The notes under the pieces: generated by a model
The model's database searches: none
What the model was told of the DNA's origin: nothing
The model's input: only the letters and a program-made list of their open reading frames with translations
Position numbers and translations under genes: made by a program
Assembly: GCF_000377985.1 (NCBI RefSeq)
Contig: NZ_KB899043.1
Span: 124,001-188,000, forward strand
Origin: Sporolactobacillus vineae DSM 21990 = SL153
Lineage (GTDB): Bacteria > Bacillota > Bacilli > Bacillales > Sporolactobacillaceae
Length of the DNA stretch: 64,000 bases
Direction: 5' to 3'
Part shown: positions 23,165 to 45,717 of the stretch, piece after piece
Layout of the letters: every line of letters begins with the position of its first letter
How positions within the stretch are numbered: the first letter of the stretch is position 1

Positions 23165-23476
23165 CGTCACAGAGCCTTACAAATAGAAAGAGCCTTCTTC
23201 ATCGAAAGGACGAAGAAAGCTCCGTGGTACCACCTTAATTTGCGTCAATCATCAGACGCAGACTCAATCTGGATAACGGGACTCCCGTAATTTCCTACTC
23301 AGCGGCAGCTTTTCAGAAATTCTGCTTGCGGGCAACTTCTGCTCCGGCAGCCTGGGGAATCTCTCAGCGCAACAATTCCCCTCTCTTACGAAAGCGGCAG
23401 ATCATCCGCAGCTTTCTCCGGCATAAAGAGGCATACTACTCCCGGTCTTTGCATTATCTGTTTAAATAAATGGATT
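23165..23476 (-). promoter_or_regulatory. T-box riboswitch of valS
   Basis: The minus-strand leader contains the T-box core AAGGTGGTACCACGG (23222-23236), preceded by stem I and stem III-like hairpins (GGGAGTCCC). It is followed by a terminator stem in which GAGC...TCTTC pairs with GAAGAAGGCTC and then TTTC. T-boxes sense uncharged tRNA, here tRNA-Val by context. The specifier codon could not be assigned with confidence by eye. Confidence 0.88.
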
Positions 23477-42802: not shown

Positions 42803-43243
42803 TTATCGATCTGTTTCGGCAACTCCGACTGAGAACCCATCAACACTGGTGAGCAGTCCTCGCCATAATTGTCTTTGGGTAGAATTCTTGCGATCCGTGT
42901 TCAGAAAGCAGCAATCTCTAAGGTGAAGATAGTGCGGCGGCCTGATCGTCTGATTCTTTCTGTCCGCTTCAATGCTCTTTTTAAAACGGTCGGCGTTCGT
43001 GTTTAATGTGCGGATTAATGTTTCAATGAATTCGGTCTGCGGTAATGAGGCAAATTGAGCCGCCAGTTCTTTAAAATAAGTCTCGCCGGAAATGAGCATA
43101 CCGGAAATCACCGTACCGCTCACATTCAGTGTGATCCCGGTCTCCATACCGCTGTTCGCCAGCATGACCAGCGAACTTAAAAATGTATCCTGTTTCAGCA
43201 CTTCCTGATGATCTTTCTTCATTTTCTGACCCATCTCTCCCAT
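42803..43243 (-). CDS. gvpU: GvpU-like gas vesicle accessory protein, orphan
   Basis: GvpU belongs to the gas vesicle cluster of B. megaterium, where it is an accessory protein. This 146-residue homologue has the family pattern MLANSGMETGITLNVSGTVI, LISGETYFKEL, PPHYLHLRDCCF and LWRGLLTSVDGFSVGV. No gvpA, gvpF, gvpL or gvpN lies nearby, so gas vesicle formation is not implied. ATG 43243 follows AAGG. It has a strong promoter preceded by phased direct repeats. Confidence 0.75.
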   Translation of the reverse strand: MGEMGQKMKKDHQEVLKQDTFLSSLVMLANSGMETGITLNVSGTVISGMLISGETYFKELAAQFASLPQTEFIETLIRTLNTNADRFKKSIEADRKNQTIRPPHYLHLRDCCFLNTDRKNSTQRQLWRGLLTSVDGFSVGVAETDR

Positions 43244-43258
43244 GTTTTTTGCCTTATT

Positions 43259-43287
43259 ATTGTAAAAGGCCGATCACACGCCGTCAA
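43259..43287 (-). promoter_or_regulatory. Promoter of gvpU
   Basis: On the minus strand TTGACG (43282-43287) and TACAAT (43259-43264) are 17 bases apart, about 15 bases upstream of the gvpU ATG, so the leader is very short. Confidence 0.65.
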
Positions 43288-43295
43288 TCCGTGAA

Positions 43296-43360
43296 TATCA
43301 GCCGATTTCAGGATTTATCAGCCGATCTGAGAATATATCAGCCAGATTCAGTATATCAGT
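43296..43360. repeat. Phased direct repeats upstream of the gvpU promoter
   Basis: On the plus strand TATCAGCCGATTTCAGGATT, TATCAGCCGATCTGAGAATA and TATCAGCCAGATTCAGTA are followed by TATCAGTCGG, with periods of 20, 20 and 18 bases. Read on the minus strand this is (A/G)CTGATA repeated about every two helical turns, starting 9 bases upstream of the gvpU -35 box. Confidence 0.85.
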
Positions 43361-43449
43361 CGGAAGGGGACATGTCTGCGGTGCAGGAACATTGGGGTCA
43401 TGGATTCACCGGACTTAATGCGGGGCTCCACACGCTGTACGTGTTCCAT

Positions 43450-43479
43450 TTGCCCTTCTTCCGGTTCCTTGCGTATAAT
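43450..43479 (+). promoter_or_regulatory. Promoter of the ABC-F leader transcript
   Basis: TTGCCC (43450-43455) and TATAAT (43474-43479) are separated by 18 bases, about 310 bases upstream of the ABC-F start codon. Confidence 0.6.
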
Positions 43480-43507
43480 GAAATCAGAATAAACGGAAGG
43501 GATGTGT

Positions 43508-43537
43508 ATGGGGTTGAAAAAAGCAAACCGTCATTAA
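43508..43537 (+). CDS. Leader peptide of the ABC-F gene (9 aa)
   Basis: ATG at 43508 lies 7 bases after GGAAGG and encodes MGLKKANRH before TAA. An in-frame ATG at 43502 would add Met-Cys but overlaps the ribosome site. The last codons (AGCAAACCGT, 43522-43531) are perfectly complementary to 43590-43599. A ribosome stalled here would change leader folding, as in known leader-peptide-controlled resistance genes. Confidence 0.6.
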   Translation: MGLKKANRH

Positions 43538-43599
43538 TTGAATACAGGCCGGAATGCAGGACAATTTCTTCTTCCGGCTGTCTTCATGAACGGTTTGCT
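43522..43599 (+). promoter_or_regulatory. Competing stems in the ABC-F leader
   Basis: A 10-base helix pairs AGCAAACCGT (43522-43531) with ACGGTTTGCT (43590-43599). It encloses a second hairpin, ACAG-G-CCGGAA with TTCCGGCTGT (about 43543-43581). A T-rich stretch (CATTTTTC) follows the outer helix, so it might itself end transcription. Confidence 0.6.
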
Positions 43600-43692
43600 G
43601 TCATTTTTCAATCCATACAAGGTTCCAGTACGGGGAGGCTGAGGTTTTGCTTCAGCATTTCTTCAGTATTGAGTCTTCCCATATGTATGGCC

Positions 43693-43722
43693 GGCAGACG
43701 CCGATTCGGTGCCTGCTTTTTT
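43693..43722 (+). terminator. Attenuator terminator before the ABC-F gene
   Basis: GGCAG-N-C-G-CCG pairs with CGG-T-G-N-CTGC and six T residues follow, 68 bases upstream of the ABC-F start. No gene ends just upstream, so it most likely attenuates the ABC-F transcript. Confidence 0.7.
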
Positions 43723-43789
43723 GTACGCTCATTACCGCTTTCATGAAGCAGCCCTTTCCGGCCTCATCAAATAAATATGAGGTGAGAAC

Positions 43790-45304
43790 ATGGGAACCAT
43801 TCAAATACGTCACTTAACTTTTCGCTATGAGACAATGGAAAAACCGCTTTTTGACGATGTCACCCTGCAGATTGATGAAAGCTGGCGGCTCGGCCTGATC
43901 GGCCGCAATGGCCGCGGGAAGACCACGCTGCTTCGACTCTTGCAGCACCAGCTGACTTATTCTGGGATGATCGAAACGAATCTGAAATTCTCCTATTTTC
44001 CGCTGCCGATTCAGGATCCGGCGCAAATGACACGGAACGTCTTAATCGATACAGGTCAGGTTGCTGAAAATGAAGTCTGGAAGGCTGAACGGGAACTGAC
44101 GCGTCTGGACATGGACGCCGGTGTACTGTACCGCCCGTTTAACGCGCTGAGCCCCGGCGAACAGACGAAGATCCTGCTGGCCGCGCTGTTTATCGATGAC
44201 CGGCACTTTCAGCTGATTGATGAACCCACAAACCATCTGGACCAGACCGGGCGTAATCGTGTGGCCGGCTATCTGCGGCAGAAGAAGGGATTCATCGTAG
44301 TCAGTCATGACCGGCACTTTCTGAATCAGATCATCGACCACGTCATCTCACTTGATCGCGCCGGCATCTCGGTCTATAACGGAAATTTTGACACATGGTT
44401 TACCGCGAAAGCCCGTCAGGACGCGCTGGAACAGCGGGAAAACGCGGAATTGAAGTCTGAAATCAAGCGTCTGGAAAAGGCGTCGCGTCAGAAGGAACAG
44501 TGGTCGAGAAACGCCGAGCGCGGAAAATACGCAGGGACCGGACGCAGCGATCACAGTGATATCGATCGCGGTTTTGTCGGACACCGGGCGGCAAAAGTCA
44601 TGAAACGCTCGGTATCGCTGGAAAAGCGCAGCCATAAAGCCATCAGCGACAAGCGAAAACTGCTGAACAATGTTGATGATAGGGCGCCGTTAACCTTGCC
44701 CTATCAACCGGCAAGAACCGGACAGACGCTGATCACCGTTGAAGATCTCGTGCTTGAGCAGAACGGGCAGGCACTGAACCGCCCTTTGAGTTTCACGTTG
44801 AAAACCGGTGAGCGGATCGCACTGACCGGGGTCAACGGTGCAGGAAAATCAACATTGATTCGCGCACTCCTTGATCACCGGCAAAGCCCGTTGATCCGCA
44901 GCGGTGTTGCCCGGGTGCACCGCGGCGTGCGGTTCTCTTATTTACCGCAGAATTTTGCCGGCCTCTCAGGGACGATTGAAAACTTCGTTGAGGAACGTCA
45001 TGTACCCTATACGCTGCTGCTGACGATCTTGAGGAAACTGGGTTTTGAACGCGATCTGTTCCATGACCGGATCGAAAAGATGAGTATGGGACAGAAGCGG
45101 AAACTGGCTCTGGCCCGATCGCTCTGTGAGCCGGCACAGCTGTATATCTGGGATGAACCGCTGAATTATCTGGACGTCATCACCCGTGAGCAGATCCGGC
45201 AGGTCATCTCTGAGGTCCGGCCGACGATGCTCATCGTCGACCATGACCTTGATTTTATTAATACCGTCGCTACGCGGAATATCGTTCTTGATCCCGTGCC
45301 GTAA
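43790..45304 (+). CDS. ABC-F ribosomal protection protein, Lsa type
   Basis: ABC-F proteins of the Lsa group displace lincosamides, pleuromutilins and streptogramin A from the 50S subunit. The 504-residue protein has no membrane segment and two ATPase domains. The first has GRNGRGKTTLL, signature LSPGEQTK and LIDEPTNHLD; the second has GVNGAGKSTL, MSMGQKRK and IWDEPLNYLD. A charged interdomain linker (about 205-305) corresponds to the antibiotic resistance domain. The N-terminus IQIRHLTFRYE and SWRLGLIGRNGRGKTTLLRL match Lsa proteins. Spectrum cannot be read from sequence. The long leader suggests antibiotic-responsive expression. Confidence 0.88.
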   Translation: MGTIQIRHLTFRYETMEKPLFDDVTLQIDESWRLGLIGRNGRGKTTLLRLLQHQLTYSGMIETNLKFSYFPLPIQDPAQMTRNVLIDTGQVAENEVWKAERELTRLDMDAGVLYRPFNALSPGEQTKILLAALFIDDRHFQLIDEPTNHLDQTGRNRVAGYLRQKKGFIVVSHDRHFLNQIIDHVISLDRAGISVYNGNFDTWFTAKARQDALEQRENAELKSEIKRLEKASRQKEQWSRNAERGKYAGTGRSDHSDIDRGFVGHRAAKVMKRSVSLEKRSHKAISDKRKLLNNVDDRAPLTLPYQPARTGQTLITVEDLVLEQNGQALNRPLSFTLKTGERIALTGVNGAGKSTLIRALLDHRQSPLIRSGVARVHRGVRFSYLPQNFAGLSGTIENFVEERHVPYTLLLTILRKLGFERDLFHDRIEKMSMGQKRKLALARSLCEPAQLYIWDEPLNYLDVITREQIRQVISEVRPTMLIVDHDLDFINTVATRNIVLDPVP

Positions 45305-45362
45305 AGCGGTTATTGTTTCACTTCATCCGGAACGCCGGTAATCAAAATTTCCATCAAAAAAC

Positions 45363-45418
45363 AATCCACGGATCAATGACCGGCGGTATCGCTGTCATTG
45401 GCTTCACGTGGATTTTTT
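45363..45418. terminator. Bidirectional terminator between the ABC-F and IDEAL genes
   Basis: AATCCACG / CGTGGATT forms the outer stem and CAATGAC / GTCATTG the inner stem. T runs lie on both outer sides. It serves two convergent genes. Confidence 0.82.
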
Positions 45419-45426
45419 ATCAGCTT

Positions 45427-45717
45427 TCAGGATCGCCCCCGGACAGAGCGCAGGACCATCAGATTCTCGAACCAGTTTCTGTCACGGGTGGCCAGCGCCA
45501 GATCGATCATGCTGTCGATCTCGCCCGGGGAGAAGCGATAGCCCTTCTCGCCGATCACATCATCATAAGAAATTTCAAGCCACTTCATACCCGGATATCG
45601 GTCACACTGCGTCACCCGCAGTTTACAGCGCTGAAAGCCGGGATACAAAGCCGTAATAAATCCGATGCAATGATGTTTCCCCAAATATTTCGTATGGACC
45701 CATTCCCCGATTTTCAT
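45427..45717 (-). CDS. IDEAL-domain protein
   Basis: The 96-residue protein has an N-terminal beta-rich part (KIGEWVHTKYLGKHHCIGFI) and a C-terminal IDEAL motif (SMIDLALATRDRNWFENLM). IDEAL motifs occur in small Bacillales proteins, including competence and sporulation regulators. Its role here is unknown. GAGG lies 9 bases before ATG. Confidence 0.7.
   Translation of the reverse strand: MKIGEWVHTKYLGKHHCIGFITALYPGFQRCKLRVTQCDRYPGMKWLEISYDDVIGEKGYRFSPGEIDSMIDLALATRDRNWFENLMVLRSVRGRS

Follow-up and report, generated by a model that had tools for sequence, protein, structure and literature searches.

A leader with a UUG-started micro-uORF as a probable ribosome-sensing attenuator of an Lsa-type ABC-F gene in Sporolactobacillus vineae

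The question raised by the locus described here is whether an ABC-F ribosome protection gene of Sporolactobacillus vineae DSM 21990 = SL153 is simply transcribed from its promoter or is controlled by the RNA leader lying between the two. The locus is embedded in a stretch of 64,000 nucleotides (contig NZ_KB899043.1, positions 124,001 to 188,000 of the forward strand; hereafter, the window) of a genome of 2.86 Mb, whose relatives include Sporolactobacillus shoreae. An initial annotation of this DNA had proposed leader-peptide attenuation in front of the gene. The core of that proposal is sustained by homologous leaders, conserved micro-uORFs (very short upstream open reading frames), terminators at a matching position and alternative pairings with coordinated base changes; its nine-codon start and the idea that the breakage of a helix is by itself sufficient to stop termination did not stand. 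The leader very probably switches the ABC-F gene on only when a drug stalls a ribosome, and it can be read with good, though not full, confidence as a ribosome-sensing attenuator of the kind described for vmlR of Bacillus subtilis; this confidence was lowered because the terminator figures obtained at equilibrium run against a switch. The parts of the leader, their conservation and their coordinated base changes can be read directly from the sequences compared. The main parts are the following.

43450-43479, + strand: sigma-A-like promoter TTGCCC-18-TATAAT, 10 of 12 consensus matches
43495-43506, + strand: ribosome-binding site of the uORF (GGAAGGGATGTG), placed from the sequence, with similar blocks in related leaders
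43505-43619, + strand: SL1, the long uORF-containing stem (anti-antiterminator), from folds and footprint pairing in relatives
43514-43537, + strand: micro-uORF with TTG start, MKKANRH, stop TAA, from aligned relatives
43626-43671, + strand: SL2, hairpin between SL1 and the terminator, from folds
43693-43722, + strand: SL3, intrinsic terminator, from sequence and fold, with a terminator-like hairpin in relatives
43762-43782, + strand: SL4, hairpin CCTCAT...ATGAGG covering the ribosome site of the ABC-F gene, paired at 0.74-0.86 in the fold without a ribosome
43790-45304, + strand: Lsa-type ABC-F ribosome protection protein gene, 504 amino acids, open frame without stops

On the basis of a full-length family match, the gene product is assigned to the Lsa-type (ARE3) ABC-F proteins. 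It scored 619 bits (E 6e-186, residues 1-500) with NF000167 (Lsa family), the best of 192 families, a value lower than the curated cutoff of that model (750), and 438 bits with NF000355, above the cutoff of 380; the closest solved structure in the PDB is Lsa(A) (7nhk, E 3e-138).

The promoter, the terminator and the perfect 10-base helix pointed out in the initial annotation are all in place. The hexamers TTGCCC (43450-43455) and TATAAT (43474-43479), separated by 18 bases, form the sole promoter-like site on the + strand of 43000-45500, a region whose two strands together hold four such sites versus 1.7 expected. The terminator is composed of 9 pairs with one A.C mismatch, followed by six T, and its position between promoter and gene is that of the terminator in attenuators of the vmlR and cplR kind. 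In the helix (43522-43531 with 43590-43599), AGCAAACCGT is fully complementary to ACGGTTTGCT, and the folds place the hairpin SL2 between SL1 and the terminator. The uORF helix is actually longer (footprint 43498-43530 paired with 43586-43622, -29.6 kcal/mol), and none of 2000 shuffles was as good. As a whole, the region 43486-43790 folds far beyond chance (-110.9 kcal/mol, a value reached by 0/100 shuffles; z -5.5). Compared with 105 other stretches of the window (305 bases each, one per 610 bases, 20 shuffles each; mean z -0.8, standard deviation 1.3), the z of the leader was -5.2; a more extreme z was found in just one stretch, overlapping the leader, and an equally low raw energy in five. 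These and all the following fold energies disregard polymerase pausing and proteins. Rfam gave no match at the window leader (gathering threshold) and, at E up to 0.1, none in those of the related loci L009, L026, L070 and L088 either.

A tandem array at 43295-43364, a short way upstream of the promoter, is made up of three near-identical 20-base units (ATATCAGCCGATTTCAGGAT and two others 80% like it) and a partial fourth; it could be a regulator binding array or the product of chance. The 305-base stretch starting at 43311, which takes in part of the leader as well, has a fold z of -6.4.

Homologous leaders are, judging from their sequences, widespread in lactic acid bacteria. From 89 loci, 47 leaders were selected on the presence of a TTG uORF; 46, a set that overlaps with these, were used for the ribosome-site mask test, 45 for the promoter test, and 28 for the terminator-to-gene pairing test, the tripeptide leaders being left out of the last. 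The TTG uORF itself was counted in a set free of uORF selection, i.e., the 55 loci (52 distinct) taken for Lactobacillales and Sporolactobacillus. Loci outside this group carry mostly ATG micro-uORFs (MIN, MRK, MYNFSC and others), and the fold tests covered the group only. The genus contributes three sequences, i.e., the window, S. shoreae (locus L009, whose homologue is 77% identical to the ABC-F gene of the window) and a second congener, G014. In the shuffle and mask tests, related sequences are treated as separate and are not independent.

Where does translation of the leader begin? The + strand frame 43508-43537 (ATG GGG TTG AAA AAA GCA AAC CGT CAT TAA), from which the initial annotation had read the peptide MGLKKANRH, does exist behind a ribosome site of its own (GGAAGGG); its start is most likely not the ATG at 43508 but the in-frame TTG at 43514, which gives a peptide of seven codons (MKKANRH). 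This start was preferred because the ATG is lost in the two congeners and a TTG micro-ORF is found in 50/52 leaders. In S. shoreae the ATG is replaced by ACG, followed by the frame TTG AGA AAA GTA AGT CGT CTT TAA; in G014 it is replaced by TAG, and the frame is TTG AAA AAA TGA, encoding only MKK. The ribosome-site block of the window uORF recurs in S. shoreae and G014 with one base changed. Of the 52 distinct leaders, 49 have a TTG frame that does not exceed eight codons and is preceded by a purine-rich site, and the total of 50 includes L011, whose frame is placed further upstream (TTG AAG AAT ACA AGT TGT CGC TAA); none was found in L084 and L096 within the stretch searched. Extra TTG frames of this length occur by chance in some leaders, so that the weight lies on aligned position and sequence: in an alignment of 11 leaders, TTGAA never varies, and GCAAATCGTTAA and CGATTT vary little or not at all over most of their length. 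The peptides fall into the groups MKxANR (13 leaders besides the window), MKIAG, MKIT[DN] and tripeptides (MKN, MKI, MNI, MRN), with lengths from 3 to 7 codons and variable C-terminal residues.

It is quite improbable, even so, that the uORF starts at ATG 43508 and that the nine residues of MGLKKANRH matter as a sequence, through peptide-specific stalling. Such a reading could draw on the fact that ATG-GGR-TTG is kept in frame in 8/52 leaders (window included), on the recurrence of ANR in the MKxANR group and on the effect of uORF identity on vmlR induction; yet the ATG is absent from both congeners, three-codon uORFs with unrelated ends precede the same gene, and the ANR letters sit in the SL1 helix and could be kept for pairing. 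Given the eight leaders with ATG-GGR-TTG, dual or alternative initiation may occur at the window uORF.

Two other uORF arrangements can be mentioned. In four distant homologs (L047, L052, L054 and L055), an ATG followed immediately by a stop lies about 210-225 bases before the gene and is possibly the shortest form of the sensor. L084 has the same terminator region as its relative L083 and no uORF in the searched stretch, possibly as the outcome of a deletion leaving the gene repressed or otherwise regulated.

Is the stem conserved together with the uORF? In 44/47 leaders, the stretch that a ribosome on the uORF would cover has a pairing partner downstream that few shuffles equal (at most 15/300); the failures are L064, L083 and L087. 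The strands of SL1 differ among leader groups but remain complementary. Thus, the comparison of orthologous leaders suggested in the initial annotation disclosed both a conserved small ORF and a stem whose strands vary without losing their pairing. A terminator-like hairpin lies between uORF and gene in 46/47 leaders (in five of them weaker than -6 kcal/mol). A promoter-like site with at least 9/12 matches precedes the uORF in 26/45 leaders, window included, versus 16% of shuffles, and the best -10 ends 28-37 bases before the TTG in 35/45; in the two congeners, the best promoter scores are only 7 and 8 of 12, located further upstream. RNAalifold on the three Sporolactobacillus sequences returned 87 pairs, 11 of them with both sides changed in at least one sequence, in an alignment too small for formal covariation statistics. 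A model built on 11 Lactobacillaceae leaders, picked for a MKxANR-like uORF, partly for likeness to the window, and including no Sporolactobacillus sequence, found its top match in the window at 43494-43632 (30.4 bits, E 4e-4; the next 13.6 bits, E 0.82), which was also the first in the whole genome (E 0.017; next E 2.75). Matches with E up to 1 were obtained in 14 of another 29 loci, 10 of which lie outside the group and gave none; having 7 base pairs only, the model tests sequence more than structure.

These data also bear on the simplest possibility, that of an ordinary constitutive transcript whose strong hairpin and terminator regulate nothing. The uORF, the stem, the terminator and the alternative pairings recur in the leaders of genes 42-77% identical to that of the window, and this explanation is very improbable.

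As to its distribution, the ABC-F gene was found in 3/15 genomes of the genus and in 0/11 other genomes of the family searched (E up to 1e-60), in 81/398 genomes of the class (E up to 1e-100) and in 125/397 genomes of the family of Latilactobacillus and Loigolactobacillus (E up to 1e-130), the latter recognised by identical leaders (L010/L072, L011/L073, L012/L070). When the leader DNA was searched for in 26 genomes of the family, the sole hit other than itself was a 3' piece in one congener.

How might the leader work? The alternative pairings that would operate the switch involve three pairs of strands; of the layer downstream of the terminator (SL4 and the long-range helices LR1 and LR2), nothing had been noticed in the initial annotation.

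43546-43554, + strand: LR2 5' strand (AGGCCGGAA), inside SL1, partner 43756-43764, from shuffles and in-step base changes
43576-43594, + strand: LR1 5' strand, inside SL1, partner 43734-43753, from fold and shuffle test
43593-43619, + strand: antiterminator 5' strand (GTTTGCTG 43593-43600; CCATACA 43613-43619), lying in the SL1 3' strand, from snapshots with ribosome mask
43684-43699, + strand: antiterminator 3' strand (TGTATGG 43684-43690; CGGCAGAC 43692-43699), overlapping the terminator 5' arm, from snapshots and duplex test
43734-43753, + strand: LR1 3' strand, directly downstream of the terminator, from fold and shuffle test
43756-43764, + strand: LR2 3' strand (TTCCGGCCT), with a three-base overlap with SL4, from fold and shuffle test

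In the absence of drug, ribosomes would start at TTG 43514, complete the seven-codon frame and depart; SL1 would close, sequestering its 3' strand, the terminator 43693-43722 would form and transcription would end. A peptidyl-transferase drug of the pleuromutilin, lincosamide or streptogramin A class would instead trap a ribosome at or just past uORF initiation, covering about 43498-43530. The freed 3' strand of SL1 (43593-43619) might then pair with 43684-43699, which resembles the uORF strand, and take the emerging 5' arm of the terminator, so that the polymerase would read through. In this longer transcript, the inner strands of SL1, also released, would pair downstream of the terminator (LR1 and LR2), and LR2, in competition with SL4, would uncover the ABC-F ribosome site. 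It is from the parts listed above that we infer drug stalling, read-through and release of translation.

The transcriptional half of this scheme is best seen in co-transcriptional snapshots. With a ribosome masking the uORF, 43613-43619:43684-43690 and 43593-43600:43692-43699 form, enclosing SL2, before the 3' arm of the terminator is made; the part lying on the terminator arm gives way once the full terminator has emerged. The antiterminator duplex amounts to -17.2 kcal/mol, a value equalled by 23/2000 shuffles in the window. On average over the 46 leaders, the terminator 5' arm is paired with upstream RNA at 0.43 in the free fold and at 0.58 under the uORF mask (shifts above 0.1 are upward in 29 leaders and downward in 9; p 0.008), whereas with random masks the pairing stays at 0.43 (uORF versus random, p 0.001); in the window it rises from 0.50 to 0.71.

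For the downstream helices, the shuffles as good in the window, S. shoreae and G014 were 0, 0 and 23 of 2000, respectively, for LR1, and 23, 65 and 45 of 2000 for LR2. Both compete with SL1 for its inner strands, and the pair probability of LR2 in the window goes from 0.00 in the free fold to 0.21-0.40 with a ribosome mask on TTG 43514. In 22 of 27 testable leaders, of the 28 given, the RNA that separates the terminator from the gene folds back on SL1 with a pairing that few shuffles equal (at most 25/500). Four linked positions differ between the window and both congeners (43548 G->A, 43578 C->U, 43762 C->U and 43751 G->A); 43548 pairs with 43578 in SL1 and with 43762 in LR2, 43578 pairs with 43751 in LR1, and all these pairs are maintained in both congeners. 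Such in-step changes would be the trace expected from a switch between mutually exclusive pairings. A further candidate, in which CCCTTTCCG, downstream of the terminator, pairs with the ribosome site of the uORF (about 43494-43501), is present in the free fold of the window and was dropped for want of support in the congeners (73, 678 and 1770 of 2000 shuffles in the window, S. shoreae and G014).

A number of results weigh against the switch in this form. In the equilibrium full-length fold, the terminator pairs at 0.74-0.85 when free and at 0.84-0.99 with the ribosome mask on TTG 43514, and the antiterminator helix does not exceed 0.02; a stalled ribosome that breaks the helix, as first proposed, thus strengthens the terminator at equilibrium, and the antiterminator is seen in the co-transcriptional snapshots only. 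With 43502-43545 masked, as the initial annotation had recommended, the terminator persists as well (0.87-1.00) and SL4 stays closed; under the mask on TTG 43514, SL4 of the window still pairs at 0.51-0.66, against 0.74-0.86 when free. Neither congener has a strong antiterminator duplex (210 and 177 of 2000 shuffles), and although pairings that take the terminator arm occur in the snapshots of all three species, those of S. shoreae extend into it by about four pairs only. The uORF mask lowers terminator-arm pairing in S. shoreae (0.74 to 0.45) and G014 (0.75 to 0.71), both congeners are missed by the 11-leader model, and the four linked changes may represent one event common to the two. Finally, throughout the 46 leaders the uORF mask raises the accessibility of the ABC-F ribosome site from 0.28 to 0.34 (p 0.0005), no better than random masks do (0.31, p 0.19), and the release of this site was therefore rejected as a general rule.

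Part of these data would fit a mainly translational switch, in which a constitutive and leaky terminator is accompanied by LR1 and LR2, formed when a ribosome stalls on the uORF and opening SL4. LR1 and LR2 do beat shuffles more clearly than the antiterminator in the three Sporolactobacillus leaders (in the window LR2 and the antiterminator are equal, 23/2000 each), the terminator persists under the mask at equilibrium, and in S. shoreae the accessibility of the ribosome site rises from 0.08 to 0.64 (random masks 0.25). It rises only from 0.09 to 0.18 in the window, though, and stays at 0.67 in G014; moreover, in each of the three species the snapshots contain pairings that occupy some of the terminator arm, if weakly in S. 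shoreae, and in the 46 leaders the effect of the uORF mask is specific for the terminator arm and unspecific for the ribosome site. A switch of this type is accordingly unlikely, and attenuation at the terminator, sensed through the uORF, remains the preferred reading.

The likeness to known systems points in the same direction; the papers cited here were considered in excerpt. In the leader of vmlR (B. subtilis, Takada et al. 2022, PMC9226507), the uORF lies inside SL-1, the terminator is SL-3 and SL-4 covers the ribosome site. It shares with the window a micro-uORF in the first stem (anti-antiterminator), a second hairpin, an intrinsic terminator, a hairpin over the ribosome site of an ABC-F gene, and an antiterminator, predicted in the window, that carries the second hairpin at its apex; it differs in that its uORF is MIN, with ATG and three codons, versus a TTG and seven codons, and in that vmlR belongs to the ARE2 rather than to the Lsa/ARE3 subfamily. 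The leader of cplR (Clostridioides difficile, Obana et al. 2023, PMC10201436) also has a uORF (MRI) in a 5' hairpin and attenuates an ABC-F gene at both transcription and translation, as proposed for the window, but its ribosome site is hidden by the terminator hairpin, a role played in the window by the separate hairpin SL4. The architecture is, by this comparison, already known from vmlR, and what the window adds would be the UUG start, the variable uORF length and the host genus. We take the leaders of Listeria lmo0919 (vgaL) and of staphylococcal vga(A) to be attenuators of ABC-F genes with short uORFs, like that of the window. Both are named in PMC9226507 and PMC10201436.

Which event is sensed? 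The induction of vmlR requires initiation at the uORF, and its change from MIN to MDN or MDK leaves full function (PMC9226507); uORFs as short as MR[I/M] for CplR, MK[L/Q] for VmlR2 and MAGN for LsaA are likely stalled by post-initiation drugs with little context dependence (PMC10201436). The variation in length and C-terminal residues described above (3-7 codons; MKK in G014) is expected if the drug acts at initiation, and the loose peptide, together with the recurring UUG start, the early stop and the competing folds, favors initiation arrest as the signal. To be set against this are the reduced function of vmlR with MRK (PMC9226507) and the statement that uORF identity is crucial for its efficient induction (PMC10201436), which is at odds with a purely initiation-based signal.

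Enterococcus faecalis lsaA belongs to the same gene subfamily and has a very short uORF, whose consensus is given as MAGN (PMC10201436), versus the TTG frame MKN in L031, the closest fetched relative of Lsa(A) (71% identical over 248 residues). A near-identical match to Lsa(A), sought as a check on MAGN, was absent from the fetched loci and the plasmid collection. Among the top-ranked results from open-licence literature, no Lsa leader of Sporolactobacillus or Lactobacillus and no UUG-started ABC-F uORF was described: in the excerpt of a paper on lsaA in Leuconostoc (PMC7996808) the words "leader" and "attenuat" are absent, that of a bacterial RNA motif paper (PMC8632094) contains a UUG-started uORF for another gene, odc1, and not the term "ABC-F", and that of the uORF4u paper (PMC10219788) mentions ABCF genes only via Obana et al.

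The range of drug-sensing ABC-F attenuation would in this way be widened to include Sporolactobacillus and some fifty leaders, the majority of which come from the family of Latilactobacillus and Loigolactobacillus and from other families of the same class. This suggests that many food-associated bacteria may carry a silent, inducible resistance to lincosamides and pleuromutilins, which uninduced susceptibility tests could miss. A broader idea, put forward only tentatively and still doubtful, is that a single RNA switch, for which the five sources tested gave no Rfam match, is common to the Lsa-type genes of Sporolactobacillus and of lactic acid bacteria. Its sensor would be a micro-uORF (MKxANR or shorter forms) that nearly always starts with UUG, the weak start setting the frequency of ribosome loading and the sharpness with which initiation-blocking drugs are detected. 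If so, the published uORF consensus of lsaA would need re-examination.

Two minor observations concern the surroundings of these genes. A piece of a group II intron (Rfam RF00029) lies near the S. shoreae gene, on the - strand of L009 (6997-7065). The window contains a second regulatory leader, a T-box on the - strand at 23203-23458 (Rfam RF00230, 94.7 bits).

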